Assembly: GCA_021799275.1 (NCBI GenBank)
Contig: JAJZAT010000016.1
Coordinates: 1 to 64,000, forward strand
Direction of reading: 5' to 3'
DNA: 64,000 nucleotides
Source of the DNA: Bacillota bacterium
Lineage (GTDB): Bacteria > Bacillota > Sulfobacillia > JAJZYS01 > JAJYTV01
Below are positions 1,337 through 42,571 of this stretch, piece by piece; position 1 is the first letter of the stretch, and each line of letters begins with the position of its first letter. The notes under the pieces were generated by a model. It was not told the origin of the DNA. It did not search any database and saw only the letters and a program-made list of their open reading frames with translations. A program made the translations under genes and the position numbers.

Positions 1337-4300
1337 ATGCGCATGATGCGTCACCTGCGGACCAGTCTCCTGACGCAGATGACCCTGGTGGTCACGCTGC
1401 TGGTCTCTCTCGCGGTGGTCCTGGGCCTTTACAACCTCGTGATGCTGGACCGCATCCAGGCAGCCCTGACGGAAACCGTCCAGAGCGCGTCCGTCCTGGT
1501 CCAGCAGGTGAATCGCGTTCATAGCGACTTCCTGACCTTCGACGACCAGGCCAACATGTGGGTTGGCCTGCGTTCTTACGGGCTGCAGTCGGCCTACGCC
1601 AAGTCGACCCTGGCGCAGGCACTCGCGGCCAAGGAGCAACTGGACTCCGGCCTGGCGCAGCTGCGCCGGCAGAGCCTGCCCGCTTCCGAGCAGGCTCTCG
1701 TGGCGCGCCTCTCCGGCACCATATCCGCCTACGAGGGCTACTGGAAGCGCATCCAGCAAGACGCCTACACGGATCCCGCGCGTTCGGCCCAGCTCATGTA
1801 CATCGGCAACCATCAGGTGACGAGCAGGGCGCGCAGCGAGTTCAGGGCGCTCAGTTCCGCCTTGGTCGCGCACGCGCAGAAGGAGGTCGCCGGGGCGCAC
1901 GCGACCTCGCGCACGCTCCTGGCCGCGCTTGCCGTCCGTGCCCTCATCATCCTGATTCTCGGCATTCTGGCGGTATTGATCGTGCGGCGCTCGGTGCGGC
2001 CGCTCGCGCACGTCGCGGACACGCTCGACCAGATGGCAGAAGGGCGCTTCGACGTGCCCGTCGAGAGGTCGCATCGCCAGGACGAGATCGGGCGCCTCAC
2101 GAAAGCCACGGCCGTCCTCGCGGAGCAACTCAGGCAAGCCCGGTCCGGGCAGCTTCAGCGCCAGACCGACCTCGAGCGCCTGGTCGCGTTCAACGCGGTG
2201 CTCGCCGAGGCGGGCCGCATCACCCTGAGCGCGGAGGGCGAGCAGGGACTCCTGCAGGGTGTCTGCGAGCTCGCCGTGCAGCGCGCCGACCTGCCTCTCG
2301 TGTGGGTCGGCATCCCGGACGAGGCGGGACGCCTCAAGACGTGCGCGGCGGCTGGCGCCACGGGCTACCTCCAGGACCTCCTGGTCTCGGTCCAGCCCGA
2401 TATCCCGGAGGGCAAGGGCCCGTCCGGCCAGGCCTGGCGGATGGGAGAGACGCAGTATGTCGCGTCCATCGCTGAAAGCCCGGTGATGGAGCCCTGGCGC
2501 GAGCGCGCGGCCAGCTTCGGCATCACGGGCATCGTCGTGGTGCCCGTGCGGCGCGGCGGCGGCCTCTGGGGCCTCCTCACCTTCCACCTCGCAGGGGGCC
2601 AGGAGTTCAGCCCCGACGTTCGCCTTCTGCTGGACGAGCTGGCCCGTACCGTCAGCCAGGGCCTCGACCGCCTCGACGCCAGCGCCCGGGCGCAGGAGCT
2701 CGCCACCGTCCAGGCGCTCCTGCTCGATCAGACCGACGCCGGCATCTCGATGGCTCGCGGTCGCCGGCTGATCCTCGCGAACCGACATCTCGTGGAGATG
2801 CTCGGCTACGCGCGGGGCGACGAGCTGATCGGCCAGTCCGCCCGCGTCCTCTACGCGTCGGAGGAAGACTACCAGCGGGTCGGCGAGATCTACACCACGC
2901 TGCGCGAGAGGGGCGTCGGCGTCGTGCCCAACGTGCGGCTCGCCCGCCGCGACGGCCACGAGCTGGTCGGCGACATCACCCTGAGCCTGACGATCAGCGA
3001 AGGCGTCGAGACCGTCATCTGGACCGTGCACGACGTGACCGAGCGGTTCGAGCTCGAACGGGACCTCGAGGAGAAGGCCTACCACGACACCCTGACCGGC
3101 CTGCCGAACAAGCGGGCCCTGGATCGCGAGGTGGCAAAGGCGCTCGAGCGGGCGCGCAGGCACGGCAAGGCGCTCGTCGTGGGCCTCGCCGATCTCGACG
3201 GCTTCAAGACGGTCAACGGCGCGCTCGGGCACGCCGCCGGCGACCGCACCCTGGGTGAGTTCGCCCGCCGCCTGCGCCAGCTCGTGCGCAGGTCGGAATT
3301 CGTCGCACGCTTCGGCGGCGACGAGTTCGTCATCCTGCTCGAGGATTTCGATCCGCCGCTCGACCTGGAGGCGGTGCAGACCGTCCTTGCGCGCCTGCAT
3401 GGCGCCGTGGAGCAGCCCATCGAACCCTCGGAGGGGCACTCCTTCAACCTCGAGATGAGCCTCGGGCTCGCCGTGTTCCCGGATGACGGCGCCGACGGCG
3501 AGACGCTGCTGCGCCGGGCCGACCAGGCGCTCGCCCATTTGAAGGCGCACAAGCACGATCGCGCCCAGTGGTGGCACGTCGTCTCGGATCGCGCGGATAT
3601 CGACTCGGACCGCGCTGCGGACCTCGACGCCTACGGCCCTGACGCTGTGGCCCTTCTCTCTGCCAACCAGGCCCTGCTCGACGGCGCAGCCGAAGACTTC
3701 GCGCAGGCCTTTCGCAACCGGGCTCAGGCCGACCAGTCGAGCGAGGGCATCTTGCGCCGTCTTCCCGCCTCCGTCCTGGATGGGCACCGCAGCGCGCAAC
3801 GCGAGCTGATGAGCTTCCTCTTCGAGCCTTCCTTGAGCCGCCTCTCCCTGCAGAGCCGCGCCTTGCAGCTGGGCGAGGTCCATGCGCTCGTTGGCGTCGA
3901 CACGACCATGCTGTCGCGCGCGATCACCTTGTACCGCGAGACCTTGACGAGCCGCCTCAACCGGACCCTGCTCTCCGCCCGGCAGAAGTATCGCCTGCTG
4001 CTGCTCGCGGAGCGCCGCCTGCAGGACTACCTGGAGGGAGAACTGCGGGCGATGCAGCACGTCTCGTCCGCCTACCTCGACCTGCTCTCGGTGCCCCTGC
4101 CCGATCCGCGCACGCGCTGGGTGGACGGCCTGCGGATCGAGCTCGACGCCATGGGACACCTCCCCGGCATCGCCGCGGTCCTGCTTCTGCGGCTCAATCC
4201 CGCCGACGGCCTCCTCACCGTGGAGCACAGCGCCGGCCTCGAGGCGGAGGCGGCGGAGCGGATGCTCCAGCAGCCGGACGTGCAACGGAGGCTCATCCTC

Positions 4301-5617
4301 GACGTCGGGGATCGGCCCGGCGCCACCGTCCAGGCCTGGCGCGACGGCCAGATCGTCTCGATCGCCAGTTTCGGGGATGCCCCGCAGCATGCCGCCTGGC
4401 AGGACTACGCCGCGCAGCTCGGCGTGCGCAGCATGCTGGCCGTGCCCGTCCTCGACTCGAGCGGGCACATGGCGGGCGGCGTCTGCCTCTTCGGCCAGCA
4501 TCCCTGCCAGTTCGAGTCTCCGGCCATGCGCCAGTTCGCGCAGTCCGTCGCGCAGCGCTGGGAGGAGCTCTGGCGCCGCTCCGCGCTGCCCGCGGGCACC
4601 GTGGCCGTGCCGCACGCCCTGGCGCGCACCTACCGCGAGCGGCTGTTCGCCGGCGGTCTCAGCATGTACATGCAGCCGATCGTCGACCTCAAAACCGGCG
4701 AGGTCGTCAAGGTGGAGGCGCTCGCGCGCCTGATCCAGCCCGACGGTCGCGCCCTCCCGCCTGCGGACTTCCTGCCGCTGCTCGGCGACGTGGAGCTTGC
4801 GCGGCTGTTCCGCCAGGGTCTCGACCACGCCCTCCACCACCTCGCATCCTGGGCCAGGCGGGACCTCCGACTGGACGTGTCGGTCAACCTCCCGCCGTCG
4901 ACGCTGCTCATCCCCGATTGCGACCGCTGGGTCGCCGAGGCGCTCGAGCGGCATGGCATCCCGCCCGAACGGCTCACGCTGGAGCTCCTGGAAACCACTC
5001 TGATCGACGAGGACACGAGGGACAGCGCCATCGCGCGGCTCGCCGGGCTTGGCGTCCGCCTGGCCCTCGACGACCTCGGCGCGGGTTACAGCAGCCTGCG
5101 GCGGCTCTCAAGCCTGCCCTTCGGGATCATCAAGATCGACCAGGGGCTCCTGCGCCGCCTGCGCAACGAGCCGGAGCTGACGCTTTCGGTGATGGACACC
5201 CTGATCGAGATGGGCCGGCGCCTCGGACGGGACGTGGTGGTGGAGGGTCTCGAGGACCGGGGGACGATCGAGGTGGCGTCCTTGCTTGGCGCCACTCTGG
5301 GACAAGGCTACGGCCTCGCCTACCCGATGCCGGCCCAGGAACTGCCCGTCTGGCGTGATCGGTTCCGGCTGCCGATCGAGCCGGGGTCCGCCCACACCTA
5401 TCTCGGCGCCTTGGCGCAGCACTGGAAACACGGGCACGGCGCGCCCGTCGAGCAGTGTCCGGTCACGGCGTTCTTGCGGGAGAAACGTCTGACGGGCACG
5501 AAGATCGCCCGCCTGCACGCCGAGGTGCACCAGGCGAAGGCCGACGAGACCCTGCAGCGGGCCCTCACCGCCTGGTTCCTCGAGCGCATGCAGATGCAGG
5601 AGGCAGGCGACGACTGA
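1337..5617 (+). CDS. Membrane GAF-PAS-GGDEF-globin-like-GAF-EAL c-di-GMP protein
   Basis: A 1426-residue cyclic-di-GMP turnover protein. In order: membrane helix (about 8-32), extracytoplasmic helical region, second helix (about 195-220), HAMP, GAF (about 295-450), PAS (about 465-580), GGDEF (about 600-755), a helical segment resembling a globin-coupled sensor (about 780-910, motif GEVHALVGV), a second GAF, EAL (about 1100-1345) and a Cys/His-containing tail. The cyclase motif GGDEF is intact, but the inhibitory RxxD site reads RRSE. EAL residues look complete: EALARL, SVNLPP, LELLET, LDDLGAGYS, IKIDQ, EGLED, GQGYGLA. Start ATG 1337 follows GGAGG. It may both make and degrade c-di-GMP; the net activity cannot be read from sequence. 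Confidence 0.93.
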   Translation: MRMMRHLRTSLLTQMTLVVTLLVSLAVVLGLYNLVMLDRIQAALTETVQSASVLVQQVNRVHSDFLTFDDQANMWVGLRSYGLQSAYAKSTLAQALAAKEQLDSGLAQLRRQSLPASEQALVARLSGTISAYEGYWKRIQQDAYTDPARSAQLMYIGNHQVTSRARSEFRALSSALVAHAQKEVAGAHATSRTLLAALAVRALIILILGILAVLIVRRSVRPLAHVADTLDQMAEGRFDVPVERSHRQDEIGRLTKATAVLAEQLRQARSGQLQRQTDLERLVAFNAVLAEAGRITLSAEGEQGLLQGVCELAVQRADLPLVWVGIPDEAGRLKTCAAAGATGYLQDLLVSVQPDIPEGKGPSGQAWRMGETQYVASIAESPVMEPWRERAASFGITGIVVVPVRRGGGLWGLLTFHLAGGQEFSPDVRLLLDELARTVSQGLDRLDASARAQELATVQALLLDQTDAGISMARGRRLILANRHLVEMLGYARGDELIGQSARVLYASEEDYQRVGEIYTTLRERGVGVVPNVRLARRDGHELVGDITLSLTISEGVETVIWTVHDVTERFELERDLEEKAYHDTLTGLPNKRALDREVAKALERARRHGKALVVGLADLDGFKTVNGALGHAAGDRTLGEFARRLRQLVRRSEFVARFGGDEFVILLEDFDPPLDLEAVQTVLARLHGAVEQPIEPSEGHSFNLEMSLGLAVFPDDGADGETLLRRADQALAHLKAHKHDRAQWWHVVSDRADIDSDRAADLDAYGPDAVALLSANQALLDGAAEDFAQAFRNRAQADQSSEGILRRLPASVLDGHRSAQRELMSFLFEPSLSRLSLQSRALQLGEVHALVGVDTTMLSRAITLYRETLTSRLNRTLLSARQKYRLLLLAERRLQDYLEGELRAMQHVSSAYLDLLSVPLPDPRTRWVDGLRIELDAMGHLPGIAAVLLLRLNPADGLLTVEHSAGLEAEAAERMLQQPDVQRRLILDVGDRPGATVQAWRDGQIVSIASFGDAPQHAAWQDYAAQLGVRSMLAVPVLDSSGHMAGGVCLFGQHPCQFESPAMRQFAQSVAQRWEELWRRSALPAGTVAVPHALARTYRERLFAGGLSMYMQPIVDLKTGEVVKVEALARLIQPDGRALPPADFLPLLGDVELARLFRQGLDHALHHLASWARRDLRLDVSVNLPPSTLLIPDCDRWVAEALERHGIPPERLTLELLETTLIDEDTRDSAIARLAGLGVRLALDDLGAGYSSLRRLSSLPFGIIKIDQGLLRRLRNEPELTLSVMDTLIEMGRRLGRDVVVEGLEDRGTIEVASLLGATLGQGYGLAYPMPAQELPVWRDRFRLPIEPGSAHTYLGALAQHWKHGHGAPVEQCPVTAFLREKRLTGTKIARLHAEVHQAKADETLQRALTAWFLERMQMQEAGDD

Positions 5618-31931: not shown

Positions 31932-34900
31932 CTACTCGATGCCCGCCTTGAGCATCAGGTTCCAGATGATCTGAGCCGCCTGCGCGCGGGTCGTCGTGGC
32001 GTTCGGTGCGAACGCGCCGTCCGCTCCCGTCGTCATGATGCCCTGCGAGAGGACGAGTGCGACGTCCTGCGAGGCCCAGGACGGGATGCTGGCCTGGTCC
32101 GCAGGCGCGGTGCCGGCCGTTCCCGCCTTGATGTCGAGGAAGCCCATCACCCGTGCGACGATGGCGGCCATCTGCACGTTCGTGATCTGCTGCCCAGGTC
32201 GGAATGTCCCGTCAGGGTATCCTTGGATGAAGGCCTCCGCAGCCGCGGACTGGATGACAGGCGCGGCCCATGAGGTCTTCGCGACGTCGGAGAAGTGGGT
32301 GTCCGCCCCGAGGTTCCAGAGGCCGAGCGCCCGTACGACGAGGGCGGCGAACTGCGCCCGGGTGACGCCACCTTGCGGGTCGAAGGTGGTAGGCGTCATG
32401 CCGGCGATGACCAGCTTGTTGGCCAGAGCCTGGATGGCCGCCTCCTGCGGCAGGCCGGCGATGTCTGAGAAGGACACGTGGTTCGTCACGATGGCGTACG
32501 TGGAGTCGGTGTGGGACTCGATCGTAGCGGTCGTGCCGGAGAACACGGTCCAGGCGTGCTCCGGGACGCCGTTGATGAGCACAACGCCCGTCGTGTCGTC
32601 GGGATCTGGCGTCGTGTCCAGCGTGAAGGTCCTGGGCACGGCGCCTGTGAACGTCTCGATCGTCTGGGTCTGACCATTGACGGTGGCCGTGATGGTGAAT
32701 GTCATCGGGTCCCCGACGATCGGTCCGTTGATGCCTTGCGAGATGTCCGTGGTGTCCCCTGCTGTTGCGGGTGCGACGGTCAGGCTGAGGTTGATGAGGG
32801 AGGGGTCCGTAACCCCAAGCAGGTTCTCGAGGTCCGTCATGTCGATGCTGCCCGCTGGCAAGGTGTACGTGGCCCCAGGAGTCTGGAGGCTGATCCCGTC
32901 GGAATCGGTCGTCAAGTCCTGCAGGGCATCGCCAGTTAGGTTGATGGCGCCGGACGTGGTGTTGGACGTGAAGGTCACATTCGTACCGGTTGTGTTGCCG
33001 AGATTCGCCATGAGGCGTTCGGTGTCCACGTTGATGGTCGTGGTGTCGCCGTTCACGGTCAGTGTGCCGCTCTGGTTGCCGTCGGTCGGCGAACCTGAGC
33101 CACCCGAACCGCCACCGGAGAGGGGCGCAGGCGCCAGGAGGATGGCTCCCGCGGTGCCGACGAGGTCAAGTGGCGTGCCATCGAGGGAGACGGTGCCCGT
33201 GACGGTGAGGTCTCCCGCCGTCGCCGGCGTGCAGCTGAAGTCCACGCTGGAGGAGCTGAGGGCCTCAGGGGTCAATGGCGTCGCATTCTGGCACGCCGCC
33301 GATCCGCTGGTGGCGAAGGTCACCGCGAAGGCGGGGTCGGTGATCGCGTTGCCCGCGCTGTCCAGCATGGACGCCGTCCACTGGAGGGCATTGCCGCTGA
33401 CGGCACGCTCGAGCGCCGGAGAGATGGATAGGGCCTGGATCCACGTAGGCGCGTAGACAGCACCCTGTACGCTGCTTGCCGGGCCGTCCTTCGTGCCCCA
33501 CCAGTTGTCCTCAGCGTCGACCTTTCCGCCGGTGTAGCTGTCCTTGGCGACGGCGAGTCCGCCAAGCTGGTTCGTAGCGTCGAGGCTGTTGAAGGTCAGG
33601 GTCACGTCGCTGCTGGGCTGTGAGACGAACTGCGTGGTCAGGTCCACGGCCCAGCCGGTGCTGTTTTGGACGACGTTGTGGCTGATCGTGATGCCCTGGT
33701 CGCCGCCGCCGAGGTAGATGGCATCGGTCTTCGGCGCTGTGCCGGTGCCCTGGACGAGGTTATCCTTGACCGTCACTTGGCTCAGGCCCATCAAGGCCAT
33801 CGCCGAACTGCCCGACAGCGTGTTGCCCGAGATCGTGATGTCATGCTCAGGGTCCGCATTGGACCCAACGAACACGAGCCCGCTGGAGTCGTTGTCCTTG
33901 AAGACGTTGGCGTCGATCAGCACGTTCGAGGCGGTGCGATCGGTGTAGATGCCGTCACCGCTCGCCGATCCCGGCTGGTTGTTGTTCTGGAAGACGTCGT
34001 GCCGGATGACCGTCTGGTCGGTGCCCTGGCTGCCCAGGTAGAGGCCAAAGACGTTCTGCTGCACGATGTCGTTGACGACGTTCGCGCCGGAGGTGTCGGC
34101 GTAGATGTTGACACCGACGCCGTATGTCGGAGCGGACGTTGCGGCGTCCTGGACGGTGAAGCCGTCGATCGTCACGTCGCTCGCGTGGATGGCGAAGCCG
34201 CCGTCGACGACCGTCTCATCACCTGAGCGCGAACGCGCGTCCACGCCTGCCTGCGCGCCGTTCAACGTCACCTTTGTGCCGACGCTGACGGCTTCCGTGA
34301 ATGTTCCCTTGGCCGCCACGATGGTGTCTCCCGCGCTCGCCGCGTTGACGGCCGCCTGGATCGAGTTGAACGCCGCCCCGCTCGTCGTGTCGACGACCGG
34401 CGCGAAGTCCGTGCCGGTCGTGGCCCCGAGCGCAGGCGCGCTCGTCAGCCAAGGCGCCACCTGAGCGTCACCGCTCACCGCGATGCCCTGCGAGCTGACG
34501 TTGTAGGTGTTTTCCGGGCTCGTCGGCCCATTCGCGCTGCCCCACCAGTTGTCGGTGGCATCCAGTCCCTGGACTGCTGTGGTCCCTGACGTACTGCCTG
34601 TGAGGTTGACGAGGCCTGCGCCCGTGTTGCCGCTGAGGTCGTTGAAGTTGGCGACCGAGGTGAACGTGGCGCTGCTGCCCGTCGTGCCCACATCGGCGAT
34701 GCCGTCGGTAAAGCCGGTGATCGCGTTGCCGTCGATGGCCGCACTGACGCTGCCGGCCGCGCCGCCTGTGTTGCCTATATGGCTGTCGCCAACCTGGACG
34801 CCAATGCTGGGTACGCCGCCCTCATCGGCGTTGGTACCGACGAGGGTGTTCCCGTAGACCGACGCCGACACCGAAGCGCCGTCCTTGTAGTTCGCGACCC

Positions 34901-37256
34901 AGATGCCCCATGTGCCTGCCGTTTCGCCGGCGATGACACCCGGCGACTGGTAGGTGGCGTCATACCCGATCTGGTTGCCGGTGACCGTGTCGCCCTGCAT
35001 CGTCCAGTTGGTGTCGTCGGTGGAGTATCCACCGGACTCAAGGGCGATGCCGGTCTGGCTGTCCAGGACCGTGTTGCCCTCCACCTGCACGCCGCTGCTC
35101 TCGAAGACCAGAATGCCCGTCGCCTCCGTAGGCTGCGACTTGATGCCGGTGTAGATCATGCCGGACACGTGGTTGTCCTCGATGCTGCCTGTGGCGCCGT
35201 TCGCGATCTCGACGCCGTTCACGGCCCAGGTCACGACGTTGCCGGGTCCGGGGCCCGTCACCGTGTTGCCGGAGATGCGGGCGTGGATGCCGTCGCCGCC
35301 CACGGAGAAGCTGCCGGCGTCGATGCCCGCCCGGCCGAAGCCAGAGACCTCGTTGCCCTCGATGGTGGCGGTGGCACCTAGGCTGTTCGGCGCCACGACC
35401 ACGCCGGAGAAGCCACCGCTTACCGTGTTGTCAAGGATGGTGGAGTCCATGGCTCCTAATGCGCTATCGGCCGAGTTGCCGATCCAGATGCCGGCCGAGC
35501 TAACCGCGGGGTCACTGTAGTTATCGTACGACTGTGGAATGCCCGCGATGGAGTTGTGCTCGATCTGAACCTGGCTTGTGCCGCCCGTCGACACGCCGAC
35601 GGCGCTGCAGTAGGTGTCGCAGGGCACCGCATAGATGCCGATGCTGTCCGGGATCCCGGAACCCGTTTCCGCGATCGCGTTGTTCTGCGCCGTCATGTCG
35701 GTGCCCACCGACTCGATGCCAATCTGGTTGTCGGTGATCGTGTTGCCGGAGACGCTCACGTTGGAGGTGCCGTCCCCGTACAGGAGCACCCCTGCGGCAT
35801 AGTCCGCCTGGGGATCCGACGCATTCGGCTTGCCCGTGTAGTCGTTGCCGGTGACGGTCGAGCCCTGCACGGTGCCCATGGCGCCGTAGTCGATCTCGAT
35901 GCCGTTCGTCGCAAGAGCCGCCGTTGGCGTGCCCGTAACCGTGTCGTCCAGGGCAGTGAGATCCGTGCCAGAGCCCTCAGCGCCGATTCCGGACTTGCCG
36001 TATCCGGTAACCGTGGAGTTCTCCACGGTTACATTGGCTACGCCGCTGGAGCTCTCGACGCGCACGCCCTGGCCACTGCCGCAGCCCACGTCGCTTTGCG
36101 GAGACCAGTCCTTGAGCGCGACGCCGTCCACAGTACCCGAGGCGTTCTCATAAGCGATCCCGGCCATGACGTCGTTGCAGCCGTCGACCCCGTTAGACGC
36201 GGGGTTGCCGTCAAGCGTCAGGTCCTTGATCGTCACGGTGATGGCAGGCTCCGTGACATCGATGCCCGCAACCATGGAGGAGCCGGAAATGGCCGTCTTG
36301 GCTTCCGCCGGCCTTGCCGGAAGTACCAAGGTCGTCTTGTCCTTGCCCGCGCCCTCCAGGGTCAGGTTCTTGTCGATGGTGAGCTGTTCCGTGTAGGTTC
36401 CCGGCGCGACGTCGACCGTACCGCCGGGGGCCACGGCGCTGACACCTTCACTGATCGTGGCGAAGGCGTTGTAGCCACAGTAGTACGTCTCGCCGTTGAC
36501 TGCGACGGCTGTGCCATCCGCCGTACAAGCCTGCGTCACCGCCACATTGGATGGCGGTCCCATCTGCACGGAGGTGATGGTGGCCGTGGCGGTGTCACTG
36601 CCACTCGTCGTGCCGACGACGCCGATCCAGACCGCGACCTTGGTGGTGGGGGTGACGCCCGATAGGTCGCCGTTCTGGAGCTGGGCCAACGTGTAAGTAC
36701 CCCCGCCACCTTCTTGGAGGTAAAACGGCGTCGATCCGGTCACGACCAGGGTGCCGGTCGACGGGTCCGAAGACGATTCGTCGGAGAGGTAGAGGTCGCC
36801 GCCGGTGTCCGTCATGTAGGTCGCGCCGGCAACCGTCTGCGACCAGTCGAAGAAGTCGCCGTTCGTGTCGTTGTCGTTGGCGGTGTTCGCATCGAGCCAG
36901 ATGTTGAGTCCGTAGTTTCCAGTGCCCTTGACCACGATGCCGTTCAAGTCGCCGAGGGTGCCTGTGTAGTCCATCGAGAATCCGGAGTCCGTGTAATCGG
37001 GGTACGGTCCCGCAGTCACCTCTATGGCACCGTTGCTCTCCACTTGGGATACGCCATAGACCGCATCAGTCGTGCTCGTCGGTTGCGGGGAACGATAGAA
37101 CTGTCCCCCGTAGTTTGCGTTGTAGTACGTGATCTGGCTCGCAACGTTCGATGTAGTGGCTGCCTGAGCGGCCGGTACGCCGGCGACACCCAAGGCCAGA
37201 ACCGTCAGGAGTGCTGTCATGATGATCGCGAGATAACTCCGCAGGCGTCGGGCCAC
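31932..37256 (-). CDS. Giant beta-helix surface protein with three SLH domains
   Basis: A 1774-residue exported protein. The signal peptide ends near AQAATT. Most of the length consists of right-handed beta-helix (pectate-lyase/NosD-like) strands with recurring patterns such as VTGN.ITG, ISGNT and DNWWG. At least two DNWWG units and two FNSIQAAVNAA-type helix starts suggest an internal duplication. The last 170 residues are three SLH repeats (FSDIAG, FSDVAKTSWAAPVI, GYPDGTFRPGQQIT), which bind secondary wall polymer. GTG 37256 follows GGAGGGG. It is probably a wall-anchored adhesin or carbohydrate-active protein; no catalytic residue is assigned. Confidence 0.92.
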   Translation of the reverse strand: MARRLRSYLAIIMTALLTVLALGVAGVPAAQAATTSNVASQITYYNANYGGQFYRSPQPTSTTDAVYGVSQVESNGAIEVTAGPYPDYTDSGFSMDYTGTLGDLNGIVVKGTGNYGLNIWLDANTANDNDTNGDFFDWSQTVAGATYMTDTGGDLYLSDESSSDPSTGTLVVTGSTPFYLQEGGGGTYTLAQLQNGDLSGVTPTTKVAVWIGVVGTTSGSDTATATITSVQMGPPSNVAVTQACTADGTAVAVNGETYYCGYNAFATISEGVSAVAPGGTVDVAPGTYTEQLTIDKNLTLEGAGKDKTTLVLPARPAEAKTAISGSSMVAGIDVTEPAITVTIKDLTLDGNPASNGVDGCNDVMAGIAYENASGTVDGVALKDWSPQSDVGCGSGQGVRVESSSGVANVTVENSTVTGYGKSGIGAEGSGTDLTALDDTVTGTPTAALATNGIEIDYGAMGTVQGSTVTGNDYTGKPNASDPQADYAAGVLLYGDGTSNVSVSGNTITDNQIGIESVGTDMTAQNNAIAETGSGIPDSIGIYAVPCDTYCSAVGVSTGGTSQVQIEHNSIAGIPQSYDNYSDPAVSSAGIWIGNSADSALGAMDSTILDNTVSGGFSGVVVAPNSLGATATIEGNEVSGFGRAGIDAGSFSVGGDGIHARISGNTVTGPGPGNVVTWAVNGVEIANGATGSIEDNHVSGMIYTGIKSQPTEATGILVFESSGVQVEGNTVLDSQTGIALESGGYSTDDTNWTMQGDTVTGNQIGYDATYQSPGVIAGETAGTWGIWVANYKDGASVSASVYGNTLVGTNADEGGVPSIGVQVGDSHIGNTGGAAGSVSAAIDGNAITGFTDGIADVGTTGSSATFTSVANFNDLSGNTGAGLVNLTGSTSGTTAVQGLDATDNWWGSANGPTSPENTYNVSSQGIAVSGDAQVAPWLTSAPALGATTGTDFAPVVDTTSGAAFNSIQAAVNAASAGDTIVAAKGTFTEAVSVGTKVTLNGAQAGVDARSRSGDETVVDGGFAIHASDVTIDGFTVQDAATSAPTYGVGVNIYADTSGANVVNDIVQQNVFGLYLGSQGTDQTVIRHDVFQNNNQPGSASGDGIYTDRTASNVLIDANVFKDNDSSGLVFVGSNADPEHDITISGNTLSGSSAMALMGLSQVTVKDNLVQGTGTAPKTDAIYLGGGDQGITISHNVVQNSTGWAVDLTTQFVSQPSSDVTLTFNSLDATNQLGGLAVAKDSYTGGKVDAEDNWWGTKDGPASSVQGAVYAPTWIQALSISPALERAVSGNALQWTASMLDSAGNAITDPAFAVTFATSGSAACQNATPLTPEALSSSSVDFSCTPATAGDLTVTGTVSLDGTPLDLVGTAGAILLAPAPLSGGGSGGSGSPTDGNQSGTLTVNGDTTTINVDTERLMANLGNTTGTNVTFTSNTTSGAINLTGDALQDLTTDSDGISLQTPGATYTLPAGSIDMTDLENLLGVTDPSLINLSLTVAPATAGDTTDISQGINGPIVGDPMTFTITATVNGQTQTIETFTGAVPRTFTLDTTPDPDDTTGVVLINGVPEHAWTVFSGTTATIESHTDSTYAIVTNHVSFSDIAGLPQEAAIQALANKLVIAGMTPTTFDPQGGVTRAQFAALVVRALGLWNLGADTHFSDVAKTSWAAPVIQSAAAEAFIQGYPDGTFRPGQQITNVQMAAIVARVMGFLDIKAGTAGTAPADQASIPSWASQDVALVLSQGIMTTGADGAFAPNATTTRAQAAQIIWNLMLKAGIE

Positions 37257-37418
37257 GTCTTCCCCTCCCATGTCCGCAAAAGACAACAAACCGGCCGCCG
37301 AACGGCCGGTTACGCCTTGGCTCATCCCCGCTTAGGAGGCGTCCATCGCTCCACGGGGAGTCATCGCTTCCGTTTGGATGATGTGGGTCCTGAGCGAGAC
37401 GGAGCGCGTCGCATTATG
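37257..37418 (-). promoter_or_regulatory. Structured leader of the SLH gene
   Basis: A -10 CATAAT (37418-37413) with -35-like ATGAAG 17 bp earlier predicts a leader of about 150 nt. It contains a nested hairpin region (CTCCCCG pairing CGGGGAT around GGAG/CTCC), then a terminator-like hairpin, then GGAGGGG and the GTG. The plan resembles a riboswitch or protein-controlled attenuator. I do not see the conserved cores of c-di-GMP-I or c-di-AMP riboswitches. Confidence 0.5.
37278..37311 (-). terminator. Terminator within the SLH leader
   Basis: The minus strand has AACCGGCCG/CGGCCGGTT (9 bp, loop TTCGG) followed by TGTTGTCTTTT, 22 bp before the GTG start. Confidence 0.65.
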
Positions 37419-37889
37419 AAACGGCCCTATCCTCCCTTCATCTGCAGACGCGTGCCATCAAGCGCACCAGTGCTTCATTTCTGATCTCACAGATCCTTCC
37501 GTCTTTGATGTTTTTTGCACGACTTATATCGACTCTTCCTGCCATTTGTCCCCGGGAGGTGCCCCGATTAGAGCGGTGGTCTCGACACTTCTTGCCGTGC
37601 TTAGCCGTACACCAGCGTGCACATCGCCATGCTGATGCCGCTTTCCCGCGCCGCGAACCATGTCGGCAAGTCATCCGCGGCGCAGGGCCAACCGGCATGA
37701 TTCGTCATGCGCACCCGCTGCAGGCGGATCGGGGGTCGTGCGGCGCACTGGTTGCAGGCGCGGTGCGCCCTGATGTGTTGCTTATGCGCCGAACGGCGCG
37801 GTCATGCCAGGCATCTCTCTTCGGCTTTCCTCACCCGCCGGGCTTCTTGCATACTGAAGGCGCCACGATCGGTTTACAGGAGGCGAAGC
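37419..37889. other. Gene-free stretch
   Basis: About 470 bp between the SLH promoter and the methyltransferase gene. It is AT-richer around 37490-37530. Open frames here are low-complexity and lack ribosome sites. AGGAGG at 37879 belongs to the methyltransferase. Confidence 0.5.
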
Positions 37890-39146: not shown

Positions 39147-41807
39147 CTAGCCACGGTTTCGCGGGCCCGCGCGCCGGTCCTGCCCCGCGTCGGTGTCCAC
39201 GATGACTCCCTTGCCATGGTGCTTGCCCTGGTAGAGACGCCTGTCCGCCAGGCGGTAGGCATCCGCGTAGGTCCCCGCCTCGCGCGGCAGTTCGACCACT
39301 CCCAGGGTAGCCCCACTGCTGAACTCCCCAAGCGGACTGCGCTCGATGATCTGCTGCAGCCGTCGGCGCGTATCCTCACCCAACCCCGCGTCGTACATCA
39401 GCCAGACGAACTCGTCCCCACCGATACGCGCCACATCGTCCGTCGGGCGCAGCGCCGTCTGCACGTAGGCGGTGAAATTCTTGAGAAGACCGTCAGCCGC
39501 CTGATGGCCGAAGCGGTCGTTCACCTGCTTCAGGTTGTCGAGGTCGAGGAGCACGAAGAGCGCCGGACTTGATCCTCCGGCCCTGAAATGCGCCTCGAGG
39601 CGCTCCTCCAGAGCGCGACGGTTCAGCGCTCCCGTCAGCGGGTCGTGGCGGGCGAGGCGCAGGAGCTGGCGCTGACGCCAGCGGTTCACGGTGGCGAGGC
39701 CGAGAAACTCGAGCACGGCAGGCAACGTCTCGGCCTTGCCGGACTCCTCCTGCGCAATGTCCACCAGCAATGAAGCGATCGGGGTACGGCCGTCGCGAAT
39801 ACCGAAGTGGTAAAGGCTGCGCCCTGGAACGGCCAGGGGATGGTCCTGCGGCAGCGGTCCTTCGGGTGGGAGTTCCACCCTGATGTCCCCGAGGAACGCG
39901 CGGGCTCCGGGCCACCAGCGCTCGCGCAGGCCAAGCTCGCGTGCGTCACAGGTGCCCCAGACGTCGTGCAGCGTCCAGTCGCCAGCGCCCGTCTCGCTGC
40001 GCATCACCAGGATGCCGCCGCAAACGCCCGTGATCTCGGGCCAGCGCCGGCGGAAGGCGCGGAATGCGGCAACCGACGGCGCCTGCGGATCCGCGCTGCC
40101 CAAGAACGGCTGATAGTCGAGCGCGATCGGTGCGGTCTCGAGCATCCACGAGAAGACCTGCCTGCTCTGCTGCAGCGAGGCGAGAAGATCCTGGTTCGCC
40201 ATCAGGGCACCGAGGAGTGGCGCAATCTCCTCGATCGCCTCGATCGCGGGCACCGGCAGGCGGTCGCCATGGCTGTCGCCGAGGCTCAGGACTCCCTGGA
40301 CGACGCCCTTGTGCATCAGCGGGATGGCGGCCGCCAGCCGGATGCCGTGCCCGGTTGAGCCCTCGCCCTGGCTCCCTGGCTGGTAGACGATCCGGCGCTC
40401 GTGGTAGGCTCTTTGCACGATACCGTCCTCGCGCAGCAGCGAGACCTCCGCCTGCCCCTGGCCCGTGGTAGAGATACCCTTGGCGGCGATGGCAACGCAG
40501 CGGCCTCCTTCCGCACGCGGCTGCCAGACCGCCGCGGAGCGGAACGGCAAGGCGTGGACGAAACGTTCGGCCATATGGGCGAAGTCCTCGTCCCCCTGCC
40601 AAGTGGCGAGCCAGCGTGCGACTTCCTTGCGCCAGAAGAGGTGGTGGCTCGCGTCGCGCCTTGGCGTGCCTCGGCCGCTTTCGTGGGGACCAAGCTGCTC
40701 CGGTCGTTGTGCCAGGGTAAAGCTGTCCACCGCCCCGATCACCTCGCCGTCGGCCGACAGCACGGGTTCGGTGTGCATCGTGACCCAGCGCCGCTCGCCG
40801 TCCGCGTCCCGGAGCGAAAGAAGGTTGTCCTGCGGTGTGTTCTGCTGGATCGACCGCACGAGCGGGCACGCCTCGAAACAGAGCCGGTTGCCGGCAAGGT
40901 CCCGGTGGTCCATACCGCTCAGCCAGCACGGCAGGCCGATCACCTCGGCAGCCTTGCGGCCTGTGATCGCCTCCGCAGCCTCGTCCCAGGCCACGATGCG
41001 CCTGCCCCGGTCCGCAGAGTAGTGGGCGACGCCCTCTCCGGTATCCGAGGCCGCGATCTGATGGGCCGCTTCGGACAAGGCCGCGGCCGCAGGGGGCAAG
41101 GTGACGAAGGACAGCGGCCGCGTCACGGGCTTAGGCTCCGGACGCCCGAGGAAAAAGCCCTGGCCCATCACCACGCCGAGCCGCACCAGCTCCTCGAGCT
41201 CTGCTTCGGCCTCGATGCCTTCGGCGATCGTGGCGATGCCAAGGTCCGAGCACATGTGCAGCATCGCCGCGACGATGGTCTGGCGCCAGCGGTCATGGTC
41301 GATGCCGTGCACGAGACGCTGGTCCACCTTGACGACATCGGGCTTGAGCGCGAGTACGGCCGCCTGCCCGGCAAAGCCGGAACCGAAGTCGTCCAGGGCT
41401 ATGCGATACCCCTCCGCGCGCCAGGCTGCCACCTGCGTCTGCAAAGCCTCCGGATCGTCGAAGAGCGGCGACGCCTCCGTAATCTCGATGACGGAGTGGC
41501 GTGCCGGCCAAGGAGACTTGGCAGGAGCGATCGGCAGGCCGACAAAGCGCGGGTTTGCGTTGACGAACAGCATGCCAGGAGGCGTGAGGACGTTTGCCGC
41601 CGCCTCGAAGGCCATGCGGCGGCACGTTTCTTCGAACGACTCCTCAACGCGCTCGTTGCGAGCGAGCTCAAAGAGCTCCGCCGGGGTCGCGAAGAAAGAT
41701 TGCTCGGGTCCCCGTATCAGGGCCTCATGTCCCCAAATGGTGCCGGAGCGCAGATTGTAGATCGGCTGCCATGCGATCCAAAGCTCTGGAATGAGTTCTT
41801 CGAGCAC
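39147..41807 (-). CDS. EAL-PAS-GAF-GGDEF c-di-GMP protein
   Basis: An 886-residue soluble protein with the EAL domain first (about 10-240), then PAS with Cys residues in CFEACPLVR (about 260-370), GAF (about 400-550), a second GAF-like region and C-terminal GGDEF (about 720-870). EAL residues are intact: HEALIRG, NANPRF, EITEAS, LDDFGSGF, KVDQ, AEGIE, GQGFFLG. GGDEF is intact, and an inhibitory site RPTD precedes it at the proper distance. GTG 41807 has GGAGG 6 bp ahead. It could be a dual-function enzyme with product inhibition. Confidence 0.92.
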   Translation of the reverse strand: MLEELIPELWIAWQPIYNLRSGTIWGHEALIRGPEQSFFATPAELFELARNERVEESFEETCRRMAFEAAANVLTPPGMLFVNANPRFVGLPIAPAKSPWPARHSVIEITEASPLFDDPEALQTQVAAWRAEGYRIALDDFGSGFAGQAAVLALKPDVVKVDQRLVHGIDHDRWRQTIVAAMLHMCSDLGIATIAEGIEAEAELEELVRLGVVMGQGFFLGRPEPKPVTRPLSFVTLPPAAAALSEAAHQIAASDTGEGVAHYSADRGRRIVAWDEAAEAITGRKAAEVIGLPCWLSGMDHRDLAGNRLCFEACPLVRSIQQNTPQDNLLSLRDADGERRWVTMHTEPVLSADGEVIGAVDSFTLAQRPEQLGPHESGRGTPRRDASHHLFWRKEVARWLATWQGDEDFAHMAERFVHALPFRSAAVWQPRAEGGRCVAIAAKGISTTGQGQAEVSLLREDGIVQRAYHERRIVYQPGSQGEGSTGHGIRLAAAIPLMHKGVVQGVLSLGDSHGDRLPVPAIEAIEEIAPLLGALMANQDLLASLQQSRQVFSWMLETAPIALDYQPFLGSADPQAPSVAAFRAFRRRWPEITGVCGGILVMRSETGAGDWTLHDVWGTCDARELGLRERWWPGARAFLGDIRVELPPEGPLPQDHPLAVPGRSLYHFGIRDGRTPIASLLVDIAQEESGKAETLPAVLEFLGLATVNRWRQRQLLRLARHDPLTGALNRRALEERLEAHFRAGGSSPALFVLLDLDNLKQVNDRFGHQAADGLLKNFTAYVQTALRPTDDVARIGGDEFVWLMYDAGLGEDTRRRLQQIIERSPLGEFSSGATLGVVELPREAGTYADAYRLADRRLYQGKHHGKGVIVDTDAGQDRRAGPRNRG

Positions 41808-42571
41808 AGAGGACCTCCATTGGTTGAACGCCTGCTGCGGGGCCGGCACGTCTTGCAGGTCTCGTCGGTTCCGTCATTTCGCTAGGCGCTCCGATTTGCC
41901 TCCCGAGGCCGATGTGCAGCCAACACATGCACGCCCAGAGGACGGCAAGGCGGGGACGGGTACGGACAGCAGCCCCGACATCGTGATCGCAGTCCGTCAG
42001 CCTGCCACGATAGGTGGGTGTCTTCTCTGCTTCGGTGATTGCGACCTGATGCACGACTGGCACGTATGGCCGGGGACTGCACCCGCTCAAGATAGCCGGC
42101 GTGCCCGGCGGTCGAACAAAGGCGAAGCCTCGCTGATCTCGAGCATGGTATGGTCAGACAGCCAGAACGAGCCCGATGGCGCGATCGGCGGGCCCATAAG
42201 CGTGCTGCGCATCGTCGTTCTGGTCGTGGCTGGACACGCGGGCGCAGGCGACCGTGCGGCGCTCATCGGATGTGCTGCGGTACAGTTCGGATGCAGATTG
42301 GCCAGATCATAGCGAGGATGCTTCCCGGCCGTATGCTCAGGACCTAGCCTGCTCTCCGTTTCCTACCGCCTGATCGTCGTAATCGCTGCACCCGAAGCCT
42401 TAGATGTCCGGCCAGTCTCTCCACATCGCTAGGATTAAGACTCGTTCGGTAAACCTGCACAACTCTGTCCGGACCTTGTCGAATGGACCCGCCCCACGCC
42501 TGCCGAATGGTGTCCGGCGCGCCTCCGGGAGCTTGGGGCTCGCCCGCCCCGCCACACGGGGACGCTCCACG
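41808..42571. other. Gene-free stretch
   Basis: About 760 bp between the EAL-GGDEF start and the RecQ stop. Frames here are biased but lack recognisable domains and ribosome sites. I see no RNA gene or repeat. Confidence 0.5.

Follow-up and report, generated by a model that had tools for sequence, protein, structure and literature searches.

The leader of the SLH surface-protein gene in the window (the whole 64,000-nt stretch of DNA that was analysed) is very probably a divergent member of the c-di-GMP-II riboswitch family that acts as a transcriptional ON switch. This reading draws on features of the sequence itself, namely a match to the class II aptamer, a pseudoknot with covariation, a terminator that overlaps the ligand core and conservation of the arrangement before several homologous genes. 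The original prediction of a riboswitch-like leader is thereby retained, while its suggestion of a new class gives way to a class II aptamer that scores below the Rfam gathering score.

Organization of the SLH gene and its leader

The gene is transcribed from the minus strand, and the following elements define its surroundings:

31932..37256, minus strand: SLH gene proposed to be regulated, 1774 aa, GTG start
37262..37269, minus strand: Shine-Dalgarno sequence GGGAGGGG, with GGGAGGG common to four aligned leaders
37520..37533, minus strand: upstream box GTCGATATAAGTCG, a GTCG repeat with 10-nt spacing, present in 4 of 4 aligned leaders, that of the window included
39147..41849, minus strand: EAL + GGDEF protein, a candidate c-di-GMP enzyme nearby (Pfam domain scan)

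The 1774-residue product combines a right-handed beta-helix (Pfam Beta_helix, 1.4e-22) with three C-terminal SLH stretches (Pfam SLH, 2.3e-27), and by eye its N-terminus looks like a signal peptide. The longest in-frame open reading frame opens at ATG 37325, a position that falls within the aptamer; the likely start is GTG 37256, which has the Shine-Dalgarno sequence at 37269-37262 in front of it, and a homolog (L011) starts at the matching place and has the equal length of 1774 aa. No sigma-70-type promoter was found by a scan near the leader. The box at 37520-37533, with the pattern GTCGAN5GTCG, lies well upstream of the aptamer and is a possible promoter or regulator site. The genome encodes nine GGDEF domains, two of them inside the window.

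Predicted folding energies distinguish the leader only in part. Neither the whole 162-nt leader (z -1.21, 26 of 200 shuffles equally stable) nor the aptamer alone (z -1.21, 25 of 200 as stable) is unusually stable, so that fold stability is not relied on as evidence; aptamer and terminator together (111 nt) are unusually stable (z -2.88, 1 of 200 shuffles as stable). It is the family match, rather than stability, that carries the strong evidence for a structured leader.

The leader matches the c-di-GMP-II family below the curated threshold

A search with Rfam at gathering thresholds returned nothing in the window. Under relaxed Rfam filters applied to the leader, a full-length match to RF01786 emerged, comprising these elements:

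37295..37380, minus strand: c-di-GMP-II-type aptamer, full length (RF01786 model positions 1-84 of 84, 34.9 bits)
37370..37380, minus strand: P1 5' strand CAUCCAAACGG, 8 of 11 standard pairs with 37295-37305
37295..37305, minus strand: P1 3' strand CCGUUCGGCGG, shared with the terminator (Rfam match and pair count)
37325..37359, minus strand: P3 stem UCCCCG/CGGGGA with its loop, 37359-37354 pairing with 37330-37325 (6 of 6 pairs)
37337..37342, minus strand: 5' arm of the pseudoknot within the loop of P3, ACGCCU, paired with 37312-37317 at 6 of 6 positions
37312..37317, minus strand: pseudoknot 3' arm AGGCGU, before the core (pairs with ACGCCU; covariation)

The E-value of the match was 7.7e-6 in 501 nt, 2.6e-6 in 171 nt and 1.1e-5 in the 3.14-Mb genome to which the window belongs. 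At 34.9 bits the aptamer falls 18.6 bits short of the RF01786 gathering score of 53.5, which is a curation threshold and no structural feature, and a default Rfam search therefore overlooks it. The original prediction is thus wrong in saying that known c-di-GMP riboswitch cores are absent, as a full class II c-di-GMP aptamer is present; the Rfam match named as a check of novelty exists in substance, but only under the curated cut-off. A new riboswitch class was dropped as a candidate after the relaxed search had matched RF01786. The leader of homolog L012 likewise reaches 34.9 bits, and for that of L011 the related model RF03170 gives 34.5 bits.

To judge scores in this range we consider the results from other genomes. 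At E<=0.01, RF01786 had matches in 21 of the 61 genomes searched and in none of 14 control genomes; at E<=10, chance matches appeared in 10 of the 14 controls, which means that weak scores alone mean little. RF01786 had matches at E<=1e-4 in 40 of 154 class genomes, and in 17 of the 154 a match exceeded the cut-off. The matches at E<=1e-4 amount to 55 places, of which 35 lie below the gathering score, and some of these 35 pass the cut-off of the GAG model. With its stricter filters this search missed the window copy itself. A DNA similarity search for further copies of the leader in the genome brought up just a terminator match of 21 nt and some short, weak ones; L003 resembles the leader across 25 nt of the core region, and at E<=1 Rfam gave no match for it.

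The aptamer shares with RF01786 the P1 helix, a short P2 with GAUGA/GAG, P3, the loop pseudoknot and a ligand core of UGG + AACCG, as well as its place upstream of a surface-protein gene and a terminator as expression platform. It differs in the sequence of the pseudoknot, in a junction to the pseudoknot that is one nucleotide shorter, and in P2, where two of three pairs form and the third, on the ligand side (A14-U60 in PDB 3Q3Z), is an A.C mismatch. P1 contains three mismatches among its 11 pairs, and the predicted minimum-energy fold is without P1.

The pseudoknot is conserved and covaries

The class II pseudoknot cannot be held by a covariance model and is therefore a test separate from the family match. 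Alignment A1 comprises 24 of 27 distinct aptamers, L060, L063 and L065 being excluded, and 94.7% of its cells in the pseudoknot helix are paired. The first pair of this helix is UA in nine sequences, AU in seven, GC in seven and CG in one and is broken in none, and the first four pairs are unbroken throughout. The covariation score of the complete structure amounts to 0.361, compared with 0.183 for shuffled and at most 0.298 for slid versions; this count picks no registers, and the P2 and P3 columns of A1 are partly misaligned. Pairing in the helices amounts to 60% (P1), 36% (P2) and 56% (P3) of cells, partly owing to misalignment, and the count of pair types on A1 does not stand out, as 206 of 500 shuffles reach it. 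L071 illustrates both sides of this: its inner P1 has GUCGG/CCGAC in place of AACGG/CCGUU at the same positions, yet under the gap placement of A1 only 2 of its 11 P1 pairs are counted.

A script that seeks the best register for each sequence found all five inner pseudoknot pairs in 45 of 49 aptamers, compared with 23% when arms were swapped between sequences and 4.7% when one arm was shuffled; the script favours pairing, and both nulls keep the register it chose. The set behind these counts consisted of 50 aptamers with listed loci, not of every place found, with L069 dropped as coming from the same genome as L012. L138, which has no pseudoknot anchors, was dropped from the 49-aptamer counts, L110 was kept despite forming 2 of 5 pseudoknot pairs, and L060 and L061 are near-identical.

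The ligand site retains the canonical specificity nucleotides

Residues of PDB 3Q3Z were mapped onto the window by hand, from a sequence that agrees with all 13 residues listed here. The contacts to c-di-GMP given for 3Q3Z in a review are A13, A14, U37, G39, U60 and A61 and, on the core side, C68, A69, A70, C71, C72, G73 and A74 (PMC7288161). Two elements of the window correspond to positions of this list:

37345, minus strand: U equivalent to U37 of 3Q3Z (alignment A1 and hand mapping)
37307..37311, minus strand: AACCG, equivalents of A69, A70, C71, C72 and G73 (Rfam match, A1 and hand mapping)

By this mapping the window keeps ten of the 13 contacts, U37, A69, A70 and G73 of the canonical site among them, and differs at U60 (C), C68 (U) and A74 (G). 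The change at C68 is compensated within the pseudoknot, and the change at A74 is seen in many relatives; A61 is placed with slight uncertainty, since the junction lacks one nucleotide.

The related families RF03169 (GAG) and RF03170 (GCG) resemble the window in architecture and in a CGCC/GGCG pseudoknot; their labels, judging by the Rfam consensus lines, refer to positions 69, 70 and 73. Their consensus has C37 and G69 (GCG also C70), whereas the window has U37, A69 and A70. Among the 49 class members, U37 is combined with A69 in 45 and C37 with G69 in three, and the poor L110 carries U at both positions; the pattern reads as covariation at the specificity position.

These nucleotides bear on the alternative that survives best, a class-II-like riboswitch with changed specificity, whose ligand would be a different dinucleotide, cyclic or linear, as may hold for the GAG and GCG relatives. 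In the window group the P2 pair that adjoins the ligand is mismatched (A.C or A.A), the junction is shorter by one nucleotide, and a GAG-type relative in the same genome suggests that the lineage may hold specificity variants. However, U37, A69, A70 and G73 are canonical, the substitutions of the GAG and GCG types (U37C, A69G, A70C) are absent, and the short junction also occurs in other relatives with a U/AA core (for example L063 and L139), so that it looks like ordinary drift. We consider changed specificity unlikely, and it is equally improbable that aptamers of the window lineage sense a nucleotide other than c-di-GMP, with the genome then holding two class-II-derived switches for two signals.

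Further class II aptamers in the genome and the class

The GAG-type relative just mentioned (L010:1501-1586; G000:C35:121466-121552, plus strand) scores 43.3 bits with RF03169 (cut-off 40) and has C37 and G69. It lies 15 nt ahead of a secreted-looking 107-aa open reading frame near the contig end, for which Pfam gave no match and the script found no terminator. Several aptamers of other genomes are noteworthy in their own right. A class-II-like aptamer that precedes an actin-like gene (L075 / L112; G058:C3:286161-286246, minus strand) has C37, G69 and G70, which is neither AAG, GAG nor GCG; at 48.3 bits it passes the GAG cut-off. The near-identical L060 and L061 (G050, G030) have an unusual junction GAGCUGCC and lie shortly upstream of a gene with sigma-70 regions 2 and 4 (scanned for L061). 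In G094, two class II aptamers (C31:4128-4211 and 4292-4377, minus strand) follow each other on one strand, 80 nt apart, and apparently form a tandem switch.

The ligand core doubles as a terminator arm

Downstream of the pseudoknot the leader contains an intrinsic terminator:

37289..37311, minus strand: terminator stem-loop, 10 pairs, 3-nt loop, -17.3 kcal/mol
37279..37288, minus strand: T-rich tail TGTTGTCTTT, ending 22 nt before the start codon

A structured leader whose terminator ends 22 nt before the SLH gene, as described in the original prediction, is thus real, on the minus strand and measured from the end of the tail to the GTG. The terminator scan alone is no evidence, as its two sites per 1.7 kb are near the level of shuffles (1.2 +/- 1.0). 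The 5' arm of this terminator opens exactly at the equivalent of A69 (37311) and spans AACCG and the inner P1 strand. As the arm includes AACCG and the P1 3' strand, aptamer and terminator are mutually exclusive, and ligand binding should block termination, which amounts to an ON switch. The same layout is common in the class, since a terminator 5' arm overlaps the core in 36 of 49 aptamers, whereas 20 dinucleotide-shuffled sets gave a mean of 1.75 and at most 4. A stricter overlap rule leaves 33 of 49, compared with 0.2 in shuffles.

The arrangement suggests the following mechanism. When no ligand is present, AACCGGCCG of the leader would pair with CGGCCGGTT, and transcription would stop ahead of the SLH gene. 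Once c-di-GMP has bound, the pseudoknotted aptamer would keep AACCG in the ligand site and the adjoining CCGUU in P1, the 5' arm of the terminator would be unavailable, and the SLH beta-helix surface protein would be made. High c-di-GMP would thus most likely turn the SLH gene on. Which ligand binds, in which direction the switch works and how the cell surface is affected are inferred from the sequence, and to that extent the proposed c-di-GMP control of a surface protein is upheld.

Conservation ahead of homologous SLH genes

Six homologous SLH genes had a start that could be read, and four of them (in G000, the genome of the window, and in G007, G008 and G003) are preceded by the aptamer. 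L011 and L012, whose genomes appear to be G007 and G008, have the same aptamer and terminator ahead of an SLH homolog; in G003 both elements also lie upstream, and the SLH domains are at the N-terminus of the protein. Homologs in G001, G002 and G009 seem cut off before the start and were not counted, and the leaders of the other SLH-only matches were covered by the R1 search alone. R1 is a model built from five sequences including the window, for which its scores are circular; among 15 genomes of the order it gave strong matches to aptamer and terminator in G000, G007, G008, G003 and G010, the last ahead of a LuxR-type regulator. Weak R1 matches in G009 (E 0.005) and on contig C80 of G007 (E 0.018) showed no complete core by eye and were not counted.

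The two remaining homologs give some substance to the idea that the window copy is degenerating or non-functional, a plain attenuator or a terminator with a dead aptamer. In G006 (L087:1395-1483) the terminator and Shine-Dalgarno sequence are kept while most of the class II core is lost; the leader scores 15.8 bits with R1 (E 0.0038), has no RF01786 match and is apparently a riboswitch decaying towards a plain attenuator. Neither reading the start of the G013 homolog nor searching revealed an aptamer, although loss in this more distant homolog has no bearing on the identity of the window RNA. The low score of the window aptamer would also fit decay. Against this, the core stretches are identical across the window, L011 and L012, the proteins of the latter two being 65% and 59% identical to that of the window (best segment), the window pseudoknot is complete, and inner P1 has changed on both sides in L071. 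A dead aptamer is therefore very unlikely, less probable still than changed specificity.

The genes downstream of the class aptamers were surveyed with Pfam for 40 of 47 proteins picked; the open reading frames were picked automatically, and some picks may be wrong. Above the cut-off, nine of the 40 have surface or extracellular domains (SLH, VWA and beta-helix in two each, and fasciclin, fn3/subtilase and camelysin-like in one each). A further three are polysaccharide or glycosyl-transfer enzymes, one has a beta-helix match below the cut-off, eight are other proteins, among them a sigma factor, a LuxR regulator and a MASE3/GAF sensor, and 19 have no Pfam match.

Relation to known systems and implications

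That the leader represents a new riboswitch class, or belongs to the orphan 'SLH motif', and is unrelated to class II is extremely improbable: the motif has been described ahead of SLH genes in Firmicutes and Synergistaceae, with c-di-GMP put forward as a possible ligand (PMC6429828), but the full-length class II match and the pseudoknot make a separate class unnecessary. Judged by its published description, the motif resembles the leader in the window in preceding SLH-domain genes and in its suggested ligand (PMC6429828); no Rfam family named SLH motif matched the leader.

For the c-di-GMP-II ON switch that we favour, the closest parallels come from Clostridioides difficile, where adhesins and pili are reported to be under class II switches of the transcriptional ON type (PMC11477304). 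CD2831, CD3246, the pilin operon and cmrRST show c-di-GMP-dependent expression of adhesins and surface structures, as is proposed here; the targets described there are collagen-binding and thioester-domain adhesins, pili and a signalling system, whereas the window has an SLH beta-helix protein (PMC11477304). Tandem class II copies before a putative surface-anchor protein have also been reported (PMC9481103). Class II switches ahead of surface proteins are thus already known from these accounts, and the surprise is small (PMC11477304, PMC9481103).

What the window adds is the lineage, the target and the fact that the default Rfam cut-off overlooks the window aptamer, as the class II cut-off passes over many relatives in the class. 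The finding would link a large SLH beta-helix protein of the cell surface to c-di-GMP in a Bacillota lineage about which little is known, and the ligand core that doubles as a terminator arm would represent a compact, widespread and easily testable ON-switch design.
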